From assembly GCA_029227055.1 (NCBI GenBank), contig JAQXZE010000041.1, forward strand, positions 1 through 59,311: a stretch of DNA of 59,311 bases. Direction: 5' to 3'. The translations under genes and the position numbers were made by a program. This DNA is from Oscillospiraceae bacterium. Lineage in GTDB: Bacteria > Bacillota > Clostridia > Oscillospirales > Acutalibacteraceae. Positions 670 through 43,057 of the stretch are shown in pieces (within the stretch, counting starts at the first letter, position 1; each line of letters opens with the position of its first letter). The notes beneath the pieces were generated by a model that saw only the letters and a program-made list of their open reading frames with translations, did no database searches and had not been told where the DNA came from.

Positions 670-1722
670 ATGGATAAGGATACTATTCTTTTGGTGCTTA
701 CGGGCGGTACGATTTGCTCCTTTTCGGACGAAAAGGGTGAGAAAAGCACCGATATCGAAAAGGCAAAAAGTCTGATTGTAGAAAATTTCAGAAAGACGGA
801 CAGCAAACATCGCGGTGTAGAGTTTGAAAACCGTATGCCGATTGATACATTGAGCGAGAATATGACGCTCGATAAGTGGAACACCCTGATATCAGCCCTT
901 AAAAGCTATGATTTATCCGTCTATAAGGGAGTAGTTATTCTCCACGGTACCGATACTCTTGCCTATACCGCTTCCTTGCTATCGTTACTTCTTACAAGCG
1001 CTACTGTTCCTATTTTTTTAGTATCAAGTCAGGAATCCTTAGAGAGCGAAACCGCTAACGGAAACGAGAATTTTAAAACAGCTGTTGAGCTTATAATGAA
1101 AGGGATAAAGCCCAATGTTTATGTGCCGTATAAAAATTCTGACGGTAAAATGTATCTCCATTTGGGAGCGCATTTAACACAGTGCGCCCCTTTATCAAAC
1201 GATTTTTACAGCTTGGATGCAAAGGAATTAGAAAACAATAAAAACGACGGCGTTTGCGGAGTAATTTTCGAGACAAACCAAAATATTTTAGAAAAAACAG
1301 GCAAACTCACTCCGAGCGTTTTAAAAATAACCCCTTATGTAGCGCTCGATTATTCGGTTTTTAACATGGATGGTATTAAGGCGGTGGTTCACGGAACATA
1401 TCATTCCCAAACCCTTTGCGCAGAGGAAGAAGCCTCTGGTTTTTCGGTTTTTGCCCTTTCTAAATGCTTTAAAGACCAAAAAACAGGCAAATCACCCGAA
1501 ATACCGCTTTTTATTGAGCCTTGCAATTATAAGGAAAATGAAAATAAGTCTTGCTACGAAACAACTGCGATTGCTGTAAAGCGAGGGGCGGTTTCGGTTT
1601 TTGGTATGACCTCTGAAATGGTATATGTAAAAGCGCTTGTAGGTGTAGCTCTCGGCAAAGAGGGAGAGGTTCTTGTAGATTTTATGCTAAACGAGAACAT
1701 AAACCACGAAAAGCATTATTAA
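670..1722 (+). CDS. Type I L-asparaginase-like amidohydrolase
   Basis: A 350-residue cytoplasmic protein of the asparaginase/glutaminase/GatD superfamily. It keeps the N-terminal TGGTI motif (residues 11-15) and the HGTDT motif (about residue 91), which supply the two Thr and the Asp of the active site, and the following SSQ segment. Aligned by eye with bacterial AnsA, the stretch GAHLTQCAPLSNDFYSLDA replaces one ending TTK...FDA, and the catalytic Lys appears to be Ser. The family hydrolyses Asn to Asp plus ammonia; activity here is uncertain. It follows the TetR gene by 29 bp and precedes the T-box of the amidotransferase operon. No signal peptide, so type I rather than periplasmic type II. 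Confidence 0.75.
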   Translation: MDKDTILLVLTGGTICSFSDEKGEKSTDIEKAKSLIVENFRKTDSKHRGVEFENRMPIDTLSENMTLDKWNTLISALKSYDLSVYKGVVILHGTDTLAYTASLLSLLLTSATVPIFLVSSQESLESETANGNENFKTAVELIMKGIKPNVYVPYKNSDGKMYLHLGAHLTQCAPLSNDFYSLDAKELENNKNDGVCGVIFETNQNILEKTGKLTPSVLKITPYVALDYSVFNMDGIKAVVHGTYHSQTLCAEEEASGFSVFALSKCFKDQKTGKSPEIPLFIEPCNYKENENKSCYETTAIAVKRGAVSVFGMTSEMVYVKALVGVALGKEGEVLVDFMLNENINHEKHY

Positions 1723-1824: not shown

Positions 1825-2053
1825 GCGTAAAGATTCCGTTTTTTGTGGAAAGTTCATTAGAGAGTATGCATCATGGGCTGAAAGTGCATTTGAACGAGTA
1901 GTAAGACGGGGAACACTTTATGCAAAATTTATTTTGCTACAATCTGATATGGGCTTCAAGTGGATGTGTAAATCACATCAATACGGGTGGCACCGCGGGT
2001 TAATTTTATTTACTCGTCCCGGAAATTCTTAATTGAATTTCCGGGATTTTTTT
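1825..2053 (+). promoter_or_regulatory. T-box riboswitch leader of aspS-gatC/gatA/gatB
   Basis: A tRNA-sensing transcription attenuator. GCGTAAAG (1825-1832) pairs with CTTTATGC (1916-1923) to form the base of Stem I. TTCC (1834-1837)/GGAA (1910-1913) and GTTCA (1852-1856)/TGAAC (1891-1895) flank an internal loop. AGAGAG (1859-1864) and GGCTG (1877-1881) are the usual distal Stem I motifs. The loop strand 1896-1909 contains GAC at 1905-1907 followed by a purine, the best candidate specifier (Asp). The T-box sequence GGGTGGCACCGCG is at 1985-1997, and the terminator CCCGGAAATTC/GAATTTCCGGG plus T-run is at 2018-2053. Uncharged tRNA should favour the antiterminator and raise expression of the whole operon. 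Confidence 0.93.
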
Positions 2054-2082
2054 GTAAAGAATTTTATAATAGGAGGAAGAAT

Positions 2083-4200
2083 ATGTACAGAACTCATTAT
2101 TGTAACGATATCAGAAAGAGTGATGTAGGCGCCGAAGTTGAGCTTGCGGGTTGGATACATTCTAAGCGTGACCACGGCGGCGTGTTGTTTATCGACCTTA
2201 GAGACTACACAGGCATTACTCAGCTTGTTGTTCACGACCCTAAAATGATTGAGGAATTAGACTCCAATAAAATAGAAACGGTGGTATCCGTAAAGGGTAC
2301 TGTTTCGCTTCGTGATATTGAGACTGTAAACGAAAAGATTGCAACGGGTGAGGTTGAGCTTATCGTAAGCAGCTACAAAATTCTCGGAAAATGTATTAAG
2401 GATTTACCCTTTGAGATTTTCGATTCTAAGGACAGTAAGGAGCAGCTTCGCTTAAAGCACAGATTTTTAGACCTTAGAAATCCGAAGGTATCATCGAGTA
2501 TCTATAAGCGCTCACAGATTATAAAGTATATGCGTGAGCTTATGGAAAACGAGGGCTTTTTGGAAATTCAAACCCCGATTTTAACTGCATCTTCCCCTGA
2601 GGGCGCTAGAGACTTCCTAGTTCCTAGCCGAAAGCACCCAGGAAAGTTCTATGCATTACCTCAGGCACCGCAGCAGTTTAAGCAGCTGCTTATGGTATCG
2701 GGATTTGACAGATACTTCCAGATAGCGCCCTGTTTTAGAGATGAGGACGCCAGAGCTGACCGTTCACCCGGTGAATTCTATCAGCTTGACTTTGAAATGG
2801 CTTTCGCAACACAGGAAGAGGTTCTCGGTGTTTGCGAGAGGGTTATCCGCTCGATTTTCGGTAAGTTTATAGGTCATCACGAGCCGCTCGATGAGGCGCC
2901 TTTCAGGCATATTTCCTTTGCAGAGTCAATGCTTAAATACGGCTCTGATAAGCCTGACCTTAGAAACCCCTTAGAGATTTGCGATTTAACCGAATTCTTT
3001 AAAACCGTTAACTTCCCCGTTTTTAAGGGCAAGGTTGTAAGAGCAATAGTAGCACCCTGTAAAAACGAGAGATGGTTCTTTGATAAATCCTTAAATTATG
3101 CAACTAAGAGTGTAGGAATGCAGGGCCTTGCCCACATTACCCTCTTAAACGAGAAAACCGCAGAGTTTAAGGATGACCCGATTGTAAAGAAATTAACCGA
3201 CGAGCAAAAGAGAGAGATTATTGAGTTAACAGGTCTTAAAGAGGGCGAAACAATCTTCTTTATCTGCGATATCGCAGAGGAAACCGCCGCTAAAAATGCG
3301 GGCGCTATCCGTAGTTGGCTTGGCGATGAGCTAGATCTTATTAATAAGAATAGATTTGAGTTTTGCTTTATCGTTGATTTCCCGATGTATGAGTATGACG
3401 AGACAAGCGGAAAGATTATATTTACCCATAACCCCTTCTCAATGCCGCAGGGCGGACTTGATGCTCTTCTTTCAAAGGACCCCACAGAAGTTTTAGCCTA
3501 TCAGTACGACCTTGTTTGTAACGGTATTGAGCTTGCTTCCGGTGCTGTTCGTAACCACGATGTTGAGATTATGAAAAAGGCATTTGAGATTGCAGGTTAT
3601 AGCGAAGAAGAGTTAGCTGCTAGATTTAGCGCTCTTTATGAGGCATTCCAGTTCGGTGCACCGCCACACGCAGGTATGGCGCCCGGTGTTGACAGAATGA
3701 TAATGCTTTTAGAGGATACCGAAACTATCAGAGATGTTATCGTATTCCCGCTTGACGGTCAGGCACAAGACCAGATGCTCGGCGCTCCGAGTACCGTTAG
3801 CGAGATGCAGTTGTTTGAAGCAAATGTATCTATCAGAGGCTCAGAAACAGGATTTTCGGGCGGCGGCGCTACAGTCGGCGGCGTAGGTTCTGCTAAAAAG
3901 AGCGAGAAAAAGGAATTAACAAAAGAAGAAAAGCTAAAGGCACTTGAAAGCGTTAACGAATTAAAGCTTTCGGATAACGAAGAGGGCACAATGCTCAAAC
4001 TTTTCGAGGATATGAAAGCCTTTGAAGAAAAATTAGACGCAATAGATACAGAGGCTACCGAGCCGATGATTTATGTTGCTCCCACAGTAAATGTGATAAG
4101 AGAAGATAAGAGGGTGCAGCCCTTCTCAAGAGAAAAGCTTTTAGAGGGTGCACCGCAGGCAAGCGAAGACAGTTGGATTGTTCCAAAGGTAGTAAAGTGA
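2083..4200 (+). CDS. aspS: AspRS-GatC fusion protein (non-discriminating type)
   Basis: A 705-residue protein, over 110 residues longer than ordinary bacterial AspRS. Residues 1 to about 590 are a complete class IIb synthetase: OB-fold anticodon domain, then catalytic core with FRDEDARADR (motif 2) and GAPPHAGMAPGVDR (motif 3). The RDHGG segment carries the His seen in enzymes that charge both tRNA-Asp and tRNA-Asn. A Gly-rich linker (about 591-603) and a charged stretch lead to a full GatC domain (about 620-705) with TEATEPM, VIREDKRV, REKLLEGAPQ and a terminal VPKVVK. I start at ATG 2083 after AGGAGGAAGAAT. The fusion joins Asp-tRNA formation to the amidotransferase encoded next; the gatA start overlaps the stop region. 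Confidence 0.95.
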   Translation: MYRTHYCNDIRKSDVGAEVELAGWIHSKRDHGGVLFIDLRDYTGITQLVVHDPKMIEELDSNKIETVVSVKGTVSLRDIETVNEKIATGEVELIVSSYKILGKCIKDLPFEIFDSKDSKEQLRLKHRFLDLRNPKVSSSIYKRSQIIKYMRELMENEGFLEIQTPILTASSPEGARDFLVPSRKHPGKFYALPQAPQQFKQLLMVSGFDRYFQIAPCFRDEDARADRSPGEFYQLDFEMAFATQEEVLGVCERVIRSIFGKFIGHHEPLDEAPFRHISFAESMLKYGSDKPDLRNPLEICDLTEFFKTVNFPVFKGKVVRAIVAPCKNERWFFDKSLNYATKSVGMQGLAHITLLNEKTAEFKDDPIVKKLTDEQKREIIELTGLKEGETIFFICDIAEETAAKNAGAIRSWLGDELDLINKNRFEFCFIVDFPMYEYDETSGKIIFTHNPFSMPQGGLDALLSKDPTEVLAYQYDLVCNGIELASGAVRNHDVEIMKKAFEIAGYSEEELAARFSALYEAFQFGAPPHAGMAPGVDRMIMLLEDTETIRDVIVFPLDGQAQDQMLGAPSTVSEMQLFEANVSIRGSETGFSGGGATVGGVGSAKKSEKKELTKEEKLKALESVNELKLSDNEEGTMLKLFEDMKAFEEKLDAIDTEATEPMIYVAPTVNVIREDKRVQPFSREKLLEGAPQASEDSWIVPKVVK

Positions 4201-4210
4201 GGTGTTGGCA

Positions 4211-5395
4211 GTGAAATTTATTACAAAACTTAATGTATCGGGCAAAATCGCGGTTGACGATAACATTCTCGTTGAAGGTGTTCTGTCCTCTGCCGGCTCT
4301 CATATTTTAGACGGCTTTAAGCCCCTTTTCAGCGCAGAGGCAGTTACCCGTCTTGAAAAAGCAGGCTATGCCGTTAGCGGCAAAACAAATGTAGGCGAAT
4401 TTGGTCTTGACCTTTTAGGCGAAACCTCTTATTACGGTGCAGTTACAGAAAACGGCGCTTTGAGAGGTGCCGCTGCTGCCTTAGTTGCAGACGGCACAGT
4501 AGAGGCTGCCCTTTGCGTAGATGTAAACGGCTACCCAAGAAGAGCTGCTGCCGCATCGGAGGTTGCTTTTCTTAAGCCCACATACAGTACAGTATCCCGC
4601 TACGGCGTTATTGCGGCGGCGTCTTCAGGCGAGCAAATCGGCGTTACTGCAAAAAATGTCGAAAAAATTGCCGAGGTTATGTCGGTTATCGCAGGTCACG
4701 ACGCAAAGGACGGCACTAGCGACAAGGTAGAAAGCTATACCTATTCTACAACCGAAGAGGTTAGCGGTAAAAAGGTTTGCCTTATTACAGAGCTTTACGA
4801 TGCGGTGTCAAGTGATGTAAAGGTAAAGATTGATAGCTATATTAAAAAGCTTGAGGCAAAGGGCGTTTCTGTGGAAAAGATATCCTTATCCCTCGTTTTA
4901 GAGGCAAAAACCGTATGGCAGATACTTTTATCGGCAGAAACCTGTAACAATGTTTCCCGTTTTGACGGTGTTAAGTACGGTCACCGAGCAGAAAAATACA
5001 GAAATATTGACGAGCTTTATGTAAACTCAAGAACAGAGGGCTTCGGCTTCCTTACAAAAGCTACCATTCTTTACGGCTCGGATGTTTTATCTAAAGGCAG
5101 ATACGAAAACTGCTACGATAAGGCAATGAGAGTTCGCCGTATTATAGCAGAGGAATTAAATAAAATTTTCGAAAAGTTTGATGCAGTTTTATTACCTGTT
5201 GCAAGTCAGGTAAATTATAGCGAATATGATTTAAAGGATGCGTTCAGCAAGGTGTTTGAGGAGTCGGTATTCACCGCCCTTCCAAACCTTACAGGTGCCC
5301 CTGCTTTAGTTACAAGCGGAGTTCAGTTAATGGCGGCTTCCTTTAAGGAAAGCACCCTTTTAAGTCTTGCAAAATCAGTAGAGGAGGATAAGTAA
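4211..5395 (+). CDS. gatA: GatA homologue lacking amidase catalytic residues
   Basis: A 394-residue amidase-family protein in the gatA position, against about 485 for typical GatA. It lacks the N-terminal 65 or so residues and part of the C-terminus. Fold and interface motifs survive: KTNVGEF, LKPTYSTVSRYGV, NVSRFDGVKYGH, SRTEGFG and the KAMRVRR helix. The Ser-cisSer-Lys triad does not: the IKDN lysine is Asp16 in AVDDNI, the GGSSGGS loop is NGALRG (81-86), and the nucleophile position of TGGSIRQPA is Tyr108 in NGYPRRAAA. The GTG at 4211 has GAGGTG upstream. An intact frame between aspS-gatC and gatB argues for a retained structural role; glutaminase activity is very unlikely. Confidence 0.85.
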   Translation: MKFITKLNVSGKIAVDDNILVEGVLSSAGSHILDGFKPLFSAEAVTRLEKAGYAVSGKTNVGEFGLDLLGETSYYGAVTENGALRGAAAALVADGTVEAALCVDVNGYPRRAAAASEVAFLKPTYSTVSRYGVIAAASSGEQIGVTAKNVEKIAEVMSVIAGHDAKDGTSDKVESYTYSTTEEVSGKKVCLITELYDAVSSDVKVKIDSYIKKLEAKGVSVEKISLSLVLEAKTVWQILLSAETCNNVSRFDGVKYGHRAEKYRNIDELYVNSRTEGFGFLTKATILYGSDVLSKGRYENCYDKAMRVRRIIAEELNKIFEKFDAVLLPVASQVNYSEYDLKDAFSKVFEESVFTALPNLTGAPALVTSGVQLMAASFKESTLLSLAKSVEEDK

Positions 5396-5397
5396 TT

Positions 5398-6819
5398 ATG
5401 GGTTATGAAGTAGTAATCGGTCTTGAAACCCACGTAGAGCTTTCAACAGAGTCTAAACTCTTTTGTTCCTGCGGCGGCCACTCTAGTGCCGACGAGCCTA
5501 ACGATTGCGTATGTCCTGCCTGCTGCGGAATGCCCGGTATGCTTCCCGTTGTAAACAAAAAGGCTATTGAGCTTGCCGTTAAAGCGGGACTTATGCTTAA
5601 CTGTAAAATCAACAAATACACAACCTTTGATAAAAAGAGTTATTATTATCCTGACCTTCCTGCCGCTTATCAGACAACGCAGTGGTTCCATCCTATCTGT
5701 GTTGAGGGTGCGGTTGAGGTAGAAACAAGTCAGGGAACAAGAACCATCGGCATTAAGCAAATTCACGTTGAGGAGGACGCAGGAAAGCTCGTTCACACAA
5801 ACGATTCTTCTCTTGTAGACTACAACAGAACAAGCGTGCCGCTTATCGAAATTGTTACAAAGCCTGATTTCAGGAGTGCTGAAGAGGTTATAACATATCT
5901 TAAAACCTTAAAATCAAAGCTTCAGTTCGCAGGAATTTCTGAATGTGAAGAGGGCGCTATGAGATGCGATATAAACATCTCGGTTCGCCCTGAGGGAACA
6001 GATGAGCTCGGTGTTCGTACCGAAATCAAGAATATGAGCTCGCTTACTTCCATTGAAGAGGCAATAAACAAAGAGGCTATCCGTCATATAGATGCCCTTG
6101 AGAGATTTACAGAGGAATTAGTTCAGGAAACTCGCCGTTGGGACGATGTTAAAAAGCGAACCTTCTCAATGAGAAACAAGGAAACGGCGGCAGATTACCG
6201 CTATTTCCCTGACCCGAATATAATGCCTGTTGTAATCAGCGACGAATGGCTTGAGGAAATTAAGGCAGATATGCCGGCTACAACCTCTGAGCAGGCGGCT
6301 AAATATGTGTCTCTAGGAATTCCCGAAAAGGAAGCGGCACAAATTGTAACAGAGCCTGTTTTAAGTCAGTTGCTTGATAGCGTAATAGCTCTCGGTGCCG
6401 ACGCTAAAACCGCATCAAGTTGGATAATTACCGACTGTGTAGGAATTTTGAGAAGAAACGGCAAGGTTGCAAAGGAGCTTGATATCGCACCCGAAACGCT
6501 ATTCTATATTATAAGCAAGGTTAGTGATAACGAGCTTACAAGAAAAGCCGGTAGAAATGTTTTGGTGGCAGTTATCAGCGATGGTGTGGACCCTAAAATA
6601 TACGCTAAGGAAAACAACCTCTTCTCTCAGAACGACAGCGCAGCGCTCGAAGAGGTTTGCAAGAAAATTGTTGAAGCAAATCCGCAGGCAGTTGAAGATT
6701 ACAAAAACGGAAAGACAAAAGCCATTCAGGCACTTTTTGGTGGAGTAATGAGAGAGCTTCGCGGAACAGGCGACCCCGCAGTTATCAACAAAATATTACT
6801 CGAAATGTTATCTAAATAA
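5398..6819 (+). CDS. gatB: Asp-tRNA(Asn)/Glu-tRNA(Gln) amidotransferase subunit B
   Basis: A 473-residue GatB of normal length. It phosphorylates the side-chain carboxylate of mischarged Asp-tRNA(Asn) or Glu-tRNA(Gln) and replaces the phosphate with ammonia. The start is VVIGLETHVEL, followed by the zinc-site cysteines (FCSCGG and CVCPACCGMPG), the ATP/Mg segment HVEEDAGKLVH, DYNRTSVPLIEIVTKPD and EGAMRCDINISV, then the C-terminal helical and YqeY-like tail domains (from about residue 295). All hallmark residues look intact, unlike the preceding GatA. It starts 2 bp after the gatA stop, with GAGGAGGATAAG as ribosome binding site, and ends at a strong terminator. Confidence 0.96.
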   Translation: MGYEVVIGLETHVELSTESKLFCSCGGHSSADEPNDCVCPACCGMPGMLPVVNKKAIELAVKAGLMLNCKINKYTTFDKKSYYYPDLPAAYQTTQWFHPICVEGAVEVETSQGTRTIGIKQIHVEEDAGKLVHTNDSSLVDYNRTSVPLIEIVTKPDFRSAEEVITYLKTLKSKLQFAGISECEEGAMRCDINISVRPEGTDELGVRTEIKNMSSLTSIEEAINKEAIRHIDALERFTEELVQETRRWDDVKKRTFSMRNKETAADYRYFPDPNIMPVVISDEWLEEIKADMPATTSEQAAKYVSLGIPEKEAAQIVTEPVLSQLLDSVIALGADAKTASSWIITDCVGILRRNGKVAKELDIAPETLFYIISKVSDNELTRKAGRNVLVAVISDGVDPKIYAKENNLFSQNDSAALEEVCKKIVEANPQAVEDYKNGKTKAIQALFGGVMRELRGTGDPAVINKILLEMLSK

Positions 6820-10344: not shown

Positions 10345-10373
10345 AAAGCCTACTTGAAAAAAGTAGGCTTTTA
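10345..10373 (+). terminator. Terminator after polysaccharide deacetylase gene
   Basis: AAAGCCTACTT/AAGTAGGCTTT hairpin with a short A-rich loop and TTTT tail. Confidence 0.85.
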
Positions 10374-10394
10374 TGTTAAACTTTTTTTGTGTAA

Positions 10395-10545
10395 AAAGGA
10401 AGTCGGGTGAAAATCCCGCACGAGCCCGTCGCCGTGAGGCACAAAAGGGGGCTTTTTCTCTACCTGATGCCGCAAATCAGGGACAAGCCATTGATTTTTT
10501 CGAGAAGGCGAGAAAAAGCGGTGCCGCAGTCGGAATATTTTTTAC
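10395..10545 (+). promoter_or_regulatory. Cobalamin riboswitch
   Basis: The conserved core appears as GGAAGTCGGGTGAAAATCCC followed by GCACGAGCCCGTCGCCGTGAG (10398-10439), matching the B12-box pattern GGTGAAAATCC...GCCC. Downstream is a CCTGAT/ATCAGG hairpin (10463-10481) and a GGTGCCGCAGTCGGA segment. It lies just upstream of a lipoprotein and an ECF S-component gene, a context typical for corrinoid uptake. I could not place the expression platform with confidence; no obvious terminator precedes the start codon, so translational control is possible. Confidence 0.8.
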
Positions 10546-10617
10546 AATATAAAGTCTAAATAAAAAGTTGCGAGCGCCAACGAAATAGGACTTAAAAAAT
10601 TTAAAGGAGAAAAACTT

Positions 10618-40589: not shown

Positions 40590-40765
40590 AAGGTGAATAG
40601 CTTTGTCCTTTTGCCTGAGAGATTAGCAAAAAATTGCTTTGCCCCTTCGGCCCTCAACTTAATGAGCTTCTCCAAAGTAATGTCCGTTTGCAGTCCCTTT
40701 CCCGATTGGGAAGCCTGAGAGCGTTACTCCTTCGGCAGCATATAGCTTCTTCTGCAAATTTCATA
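40590..40765 (-). promoter_or_regulatory. Tandem glycine riboswitch
   Basis: Read on the minus strand, two glycine aptamers follow each other. The first has GCCGAAGGAGTAACGCTCTC then AGGC...GGGACTGCAAACGGAC; the second has GGAGAAGC, GCCGAAGGGGCAAAGC and CTCTCAGGCAAAAGGAC. The second is canonical, the first slightly degenerate at its 5' stem. It controls the AGCS symporter 90 bp downstream. On/off sense is not certain; a U-rich stretch follows the second aptamer. Confidence 0.95.
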
Positions 40766-42921: not shown

Positions 42922-43006
42922 TTCAAATCCCAACCTATTCCCCAGCCAAAACAAAAAAACCACCCGAAAGGGTGGTTTTGTTTTGGCTGGGGAATAGGGA
43001 TTCGAA
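42922..43006. repeat. Inverted duplication of the tRNA-Gln 3' end
   Basis: The plus strand from 42922 reads TTCAAATCCC, then CTATTCCCCAGCCAAAAC, then CCACCC; after a GAAA loop (42966-42969) the complement follows through the tRNA T-arm to about 43006. One arm is the true tRNA 3' end, the other a detached copy of T-stem, acceptor strand and CCA. The tip doubles as the tRNA terminator. Confidence 0.75.
42951..42983 (-). terminator. Terminator of tRNA-Gln
   Basis: CCACCC GAAA GGGTGG hairpin, followed on the minus strand by seven T; it starts a few bases after the tRNA CCA end. Confidence 0.85.
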
Positions 43007-43057
43007 CCCCAACAAACAGAGTCAGAGTCTGTCGTGCTACCGTTACACAATTCCCCA
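42984..43057 (-). tRNA. tRNA-Gln (anticodon CTG)
   Basis: On the minus strand TGGGGAA pairs with TTCCCCA (acceptor), with G discriminator and encoded CCA. The D-arm includes AACGGTAGC, the anticodon stem ACAGA/TCTGT encloses loop CTCTGAC with anticodon CTG, and the T-arm is GGGTTCGAATCCC. In organisms that use GatCAB this tRNA is first charged with Glu and then amidated, which connects it with the gatA/gatB operon in this window. A strong terminator follows. Confidence 0.97.

Follow-up and report, generated by a model that had tools for sequence, protein, structure and literature searches.

A GatA homologue lacking the Ser-cisSer-Lys triad, encoded with AspRS, GatC and GatB, and its probable reliance on free ammonia

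The locus and its products

The window, by which we mean the whole 59,311-nucleotide stretch of DNA that was analyzed, carries on a single strand, in this order, genes for an asparaginase-fold protein, an AspRS fused to GatC, a GatA homologue and GatB (Table 1). The start of the GatA homologue was set at the GTG at 4211; the mechanically called open reading frame (ORF) begins at a GTG at 4202. An earlier note on this DNA was right about the GatA site but silent on the AspRS-GatC fusion and the asparaginase-fold gene. The window also contains a cobalamin riboswitch (10360-10560, + strand), a glycine riboswitch (40593-40685, - strand) and a tRNA-Gln with anticodon CTG (42984-43057, - strand). 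A defense-gene reading was dropped, as PADLOC gave no match.

Table 1. Features of the operon region, in window coordinates
Feature	Position	Strand	Remarks
Asparaginase-fold protein (type I asparaginase/GatD-like)	670..1722	+	operon-linked; role uncertain
AspRS with C-terminal GatC fusion	1987..4200	+	likely start ATG 2083; GatC portion ~3925-4194
Triad-less GatA (GatA fold, no Ser-cisSer-Lys triad)	4211..5395	+	394 aa
Asp16 codon, position of the catalytic Lys	4256..4258	+	alignment, residue columns
NGALRG, shorter loop replacing GGSSGGS, cis-Ser gone	4451..4468	+	alignment, residue columns
Tyr108 codon, position of the nucleophilic Ser	4532..4534	+	alignment, residue columns
GatB, intact amidotransferase subunit	5398..6819	+	NF004012, TIGR00133, motifs

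The earlier note had placed Asp16 at the catalytic lysine, NGALRG at the GGSSGGS loop and Tyr108 at the nucleophilic serine. All three placements were reproduced when the protein was aligned with GatAs of solved structure and the residue columns were read out: AVKD has become AVDD, GGSSGGS a shortened loop, and SDTGGSxRQP has become VDVNGYPRR. The frame is open from 4211, as had been stated, and the shortfall of about 90 residues also held up (394 aa, whereas 20 canonical GatAs from this family measure 467 to 507 aa). One motif, previously given as SEGFG, in fact reads TEGFG.

We then compared the protein and its relatives, hereafter called triad-less GatAs, with the canonical proteins. The full triad was found in none of 46 triad-less rows and in all 20 canonical rows. 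The lysine column holds Asp in all 45 triad-less rows that reach it and Lys in 20/20 canonical rows, and the cis-Ser is missing from 46/46. The nucleophile column holds Ala in 30 rows, Ser in 11, Thr in 3 and Tyr in 2; the earlier claim that the whole triad is lost thus stands for every row, whereas the absence of Ser from this column is true of 35 of the 46 only. No triad was seen at other alignment positions, which leaves this reading standing. These counts include one chain that runs off a contig end (L098, 314 aa), which alignments A4 and A5 leave out. In yeast GatA, glutamine-binding residues are given as E330, R334 and D418 (PMC4027206). The presumed counterparts Glu, Arg and Asp, whose columns were placed by motif in the canonical rows rather than by direct alignment with yeast GatA, are gone from 46/46 triad-less rows, while the 20 canonical GatAs keep Lys (20), cis-Ser (20), Glu (20), Arg (20) and Asp (19). 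Of 119 positions fixed in canonical GatAs, triad-less GatAs keep 47 and lose 42, and 18 of the lost ones are fixed to a different residue.

The amidase-signature fold nevertheless spans the whole chain. The window protein passes the Pfam Amidase cut-off (PF01425) and scores 272 bits on TIGR00132, under the curated cut-off of 481.1; L134, a canonical GatA from this family, scores 565. Because the Pfam cut-off and GatA-type models are matched in this way, glutamine-dependent amidation could be wrongly annotated. As read from its sequence, triad-less GatA is a remodelled protein that has lost the catalytic and presumed glutamine-binding residues, and on both it falls outside what defines a glutaminase GatA.

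In contrast to GatA, the window's GatB passed its curated cut-offs (NF004012, 559 bits against 338; TIGR00133, 493 against 314.8) and did not reach those of GatE models (121 to 155 bits against 320 to 456). The motifs GLExH, HxEEDAGK and RCDxNxS are kept in 57/57 GatB rows, the window's protein having been aligned with 3h0l_B, and 92 of 122 canonical-fixed positions are retained. The earlier view that GatB looks functional is consistent with its sequence.

The AspRS part of the fusion scores 742 bits on NF001750, with a PF02686 match, and the GatC part scores 48.1 bits on TIGR00135 (gatC; cut-off, 47.1). ORF lengths point to an AspRS-GatC fusion in 43 of 56 AspRS rows (one locus being counted twice); in the other 13, GatC stands apart. 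The window AspRS has the motif RDHGG, which puts His at a marker position that we take, from Pseudomonas AspRS, to separate nondiscriminating from discriminating enzymes. Operon AspRSs have His there in all 54 readable rows (of the same 56). Genus carriers hold two AspRSs, one His type and one Leu type; the second, stand-alone enzyme has Leu in 5/5 genus carriers checked (L195, L196, L197, L198 and L200). By this marker the operon AspRS would be of the nondiscriminating type. His was also found in 4/5 bacterial-type AspRSs near canonical gatA, so that the signature marks indirect Asn-tRNA formation generally and not triad-less GatA alone. In three family genomes an archaeal-type nondiscriminating AspRS lies beside canonical gatCAB (L135, 865-2238; L142, 6452-7825; L151, 6129-7454), which is another solution to the same task.

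Distribution of the operon and its relation to AsnRS

Triad-less GatA was found in 7 of 61 genomes of a genus sample (the window's own and six at 61 to 66% identity), and every copy was open and full length. Four weak matches (G008, G050, G047 and G030; E values of 6e-11 to 4e-4; 28 to 38% identity; open frames of 492 to 936 aa) were classed as other proteins. A family sample yielded 40 carriers among 349 genomes, spread over 26 genus codes and scoring at least 392 bits; the next-best matches, at most 296 bits, come from canonical GatAs whose frames run to about 490 aa. An in-match stop codon occurs in 2 of the 40 (G327 and G116), yet ORFs of 394 and 382 aa are called there. Of the 391 genomes in a class sample, 13 carried the gene, the window's included, with a score gap of 546 to 326 bits; the other 12 belong to seven further family codes outside the window's order. 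A single-protein scan of named genomes returned one relative, 69% identical, in the metagenome-assembled genome Oscillospiraceae bacterium SIG572.

At 58 distinct loci, aspS, gatC, triad-less gatA and gatB stand together wherever the contig reaches; a contig edge cuts five of these loci (L017, L069, L098, L187 and L190), and L065, a second copy of L019, was excluded from all counts except the AspRS rows. Values of dN/dS over 12 pairs were 0.07 to 0.24; triad-less GatA is under purifying selection, and so is GatB. This check on relatives, which the earlier note had proposed, gave no sign of pseudogene-like drift, and a pseudogene is ruled out by the open frames, the dN/dS values and the conservation across the family.

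GatBs from these operons form one group (57 rows, support of 100) against 20 canonical GatBs, and the triad-less GatAs do likewise (58 rows against 20). On the GatB tree the label of the window's genus takes 2 changes, that of its family versus other families 9, and AsnRS presence 9; on the GatA tree the genus label takes 4. The GatB counts suggest transfer of the operon between lineages, on trees that were quick, made without bootstrap and with long canonical GatB branches, so that their deep order is not trustworthy.

The earlier note had also proposed a search of the same genome for a second GatA, GlnRS and AsnRS. No second GatA was found in the window's 1.5-Mb, 97%-complete genome, where the window gene is the sole PF01425 match. 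GlnRS was found, and AsnRS was missing, in all seven genus carriers, including the window's. Among the other 54 genus genomes AsnRS was present in 49 (48 of 61 above the cut-off, plus G026, whose gene is split over two contigs). The noncarriers in which it was not found are G005, G012, G014, G030 and G049, and only G049 is more than 90% complete. This genome, 94% complete, yielded neither AsnRS nor triad-less GatA, which may mean that the assembly has a gap or that Asn-tRNA is made in yet another way.

In the family sample, AsnRS was missing from 27 of the 40 carriers and present in 13, where the operon is accordingly not the sole route; 20 of the 27 had no second GatA match. AsnRS was called at E values below 1e-80 (214 of 226 listed matches). 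Three of the "AsnRS" matches at about 1e-65 to 1e-76 were checked (G340, G276 and G195) and proved to be archaeal-type nondiscriminating AspRSs; all 12 family genomes with matches in this range, four of them carriers, were counted as AsnRS negative. GlnRS was found in 45 of 46 genus and family carriers (7/7 in the genus and 38/39 others in the family, in G327 as two fragments) and was not found in G124, which is 71% complete. AsnA was found in 0/46 carriers and in 0/14 AsnRS-less controls that have canonical GatA; it was found in 11/14 AsnRS-bearing controls without GatA, adjoining AsnRS in 6, and in 4/4 genus noncarriers examined. The AsnRS, AsnA and GlnRS counts cover the genus and family carriers, and absence calls rest on draft genomes. 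The window's genome has AsnB, for which 14/46 carriers gave no match; since most carriers have it, dependence on ammonia is no general feature of their asparagine metabolism.

Taken from gene content, the operon looks needed in most carriers, and the module seems capable of taking over from AsnRS and AsnA together and of passing from one lineage to another. The near-universal GlnRS, the aspS gene within the operon and the His-type AspRS beside a Leu-type second AspRS argue that the target is Asn rather than Gln. The triad-less GatA complex most likely works as an Asn-transamidosome.

Neighboring genes and the source of ammonia

The asparaginase-fold gene adjoins the operon in 21 or 22 of 58 loci (21 by clustering), with varying order and strand, compared with 2/20 canonical gatA loci. 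The fold of its product matches asparaginase I and GatD. The first Thr, the Ser and the Asp of the active site are kept in 31/31 rows, the second Thr is Ser in 12/31, and the Lys is replaced in all 31 by Gln, Glu, Pro or Ser; this residue pattern suggests that the protein possibly has a different chemistry or substrate. On GatD models the 670-1722 protein scores 79 to 81 bits, and with its relatives the range is about 79 to 87, against cut-offs of 310 to 324. A Tyr-His-Ser motif is nearly fixed in these rows (second His, 31/31) and is missing from the matched PDB asparaginases.

A separate observation concerns an AlaX-like tRNA-editing protein of about 385 aa, encoded 3' of gatB on the same strand in 12/58 loci (L066, L067, L071, L072, L077, L091, L095, L097, L183, L184, L185 and L188). 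Its gene, which would place a trans-editing factor in a transamidosome operon, is at most 164 nt from gatB at 8 loci and lies past the asparaginase-fold gene at the other 4.

We consider it probable that the operon encodes a dedicated Asn-transamidosome in which triad-less GatA serves as a scaffold and which amidates with free ammonia. AspRS, here fused to GatC, would charge tRNA(Asn) with aspartate and keep the mischarged tRNA on the amidotransferase, and GatB would activate the aspartyl side chain and then amidate Asp-tRNA(Asn). Triad-less GatA would split no glutamine; it would hold GatC and GatB and line the ammonia channel and form its mouth. Nitrogen for the amide would come from free cytosolic ammonia or ammonium, which the rebuilt pocket would let in, perhaps acting as an intake. 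Amidation of Asp-tRNA(Asn), use of free ammonia and entry of ammonium through the pocket are all three steps that we infer; with the glutamine-splitting parts lost, the complex probably runs on free ammonia. Bacterial GatCAB can use ammonium. Yeast GatFAB can take its nitrogen from ammonium chloride, and does so more readily after its glutaminase scaffold has been trimmed (PMC4027206). The earlier proposal of an ammonia-dependent or remodelled transamidosome is supported by the comparative evidence, the remodelling being evident in the alignments and free ammonia being the predicted donor.

Archaeal GatD supplies ammonia to GatE, and the asparaginase-fold neighbor might by convergence have replaced GatA as the ammonia maker, hydrolyzing Gln or Asn and feeding GatB. 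Its fold, its retained Thr, Ser and Asp and its linkage to the operon agree with this, and in the genus sample the gene occurs in exactly the 7 carriers (7/7 against 0/54). Such a distribution looked strong for an obligatory ammonia donor, but it was weakened by the family sample, in which asparaginase-like genes were called at 140 bits or more (79 genomes; the 60 with lower matches only were treated as having other asparaginases). AsnRS-negative family genomes have the gene in 25/27 cases with triad-less GatA against 49/108 without. Across all 349 genomes, however, it is present in 5/214 AsnRS-positive and 74/135 AsnRS-negative genomes, the same split is seen where triad-less GatA is absent (4/201 and 49/108), and 12 of the 13 AsnRS-positive carriers lack it. 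On the GatB tree, about 7 of the 8 independent pairs show it tracking AsnRS absence. The gene follows AsnRS absence and not triad-less GatA, and so is probably not obligatory; with the catalytic Lys replaced throughout and the GatD cut-offs not reached, we regard a convergent GatD as unlikely. A broader scheme is tentative and, in our view, falls well short of an even chance of being right: a horizontally spread amidotransferase lineage working without glutamine, in which a GatA pocket with fixed Asp, Asn, Arg and Glu would be the ammonium intake feeding the GatB channel and, in AsnRS-less genomes, the asparaginase-fold protein would turn free Asn that cannot be charged into Asp and ammonia for the operon.

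That triad-less GatA still splits glutamine through new residues (e.g., the fixed Asp16, Asn106, Arg111 and Glu141) would fit a pocket in which new residues have become fixed instead of decaying, and the Ser that 11 of 46 rows keep at the nucleophile column; the old site is nonetheless without an invariant nucleophile and the presumed glutamine-binding residues are gone from every row, which makes this quite improbable. We give slightly less credence still to ammonia brought by another cellular glutamine amidotransferase or glutaminase docking on the complex: the kept GatA fold and GatC/GatB context could preserve a docking site, but beyond the core genes only the asparaginase-fold and AlaX-like genes recur beside the operon, although a partner encoded elsewhere would escape notice. 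Least probable of all is a complex that does not amidate, being a relic or serving another purpose while Asn-tRNA(Asn) arises by an unseen route. The AsnRS of 13 family carriers and the draft state of the genomes leave some room for it; the purifying selection, the intact GatB motifs and the loss of AsnRS in 27/40 family and 7/7 genus carriers weigh against it.

Comparison with known systems

GatCAB is a textbook case of glutamine-derived ammonia channelling. If our preferred reading of a free-ammonia transamidosome is true, a conserved and apparently needed GatCAB without glutaminase would be a scaffold that outlives its own chemistry, would make the formation of Asn-tRNA dependent on ambient ammonia, and would provide a natural experiment on the role of GatA beyond supplying ammonia. 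We found no report of a GatCAB with a triad-less GatA in the open-access full-text literature, as judged from titles and the beginnings of abstracts. A survey of 547 bacterial genera for GatCAB, AsnRS, GlnRS and AsnA/B does not mention a triad-less GatA in the part of its text available to us (PMC4206432).

AsnA, termed an ammonia-dependent Asn synthetase in the same survey (PMC4206432), offers with AsnRS a route that is not tRNA dependent; it is absent from the 46 carriers, and the genus noncarriers have AsnRS. With archaeal GatDE the locus shares the proximity of genes for an asparaginase-fold protein and a GatB-family amidotransferase; here, the amidotransferase is GatB and not GatE, a GatA is kept, and the asparaginase-fold protein has lost its active-site Lys and is not tied to triad-less GatA in all genomes. 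Yeast GatFAB with a trimmed GatF is similar in that it uses ammonium chloride when its glutaminase function is impaired (PMC4027206), but its GatA keeps the triad and the trimming was made in the laboratory. The AspRS-GatC fusion model NF009460/PRK12820 has the same domain order as the window's protein, which scores 425 bits where 1379 are required, and such a fusion also occurs beside a canonical GatA in this family (L141). The closest comparison is with the bacterial GatCAB and Asn-transamidosome (solved structures 3kfu, 4wj3, 2df4 and 3h0l). As there, AspRS, GatC and GatB are encoded together with a GatA homologue, in the window and at the 58 loci as far as their contigs extend; unlike there, this GatA is without the triad and the presumed glutamine-binding residues and is about 90 residues shorter, and GatC is mostly fused to AspRS.
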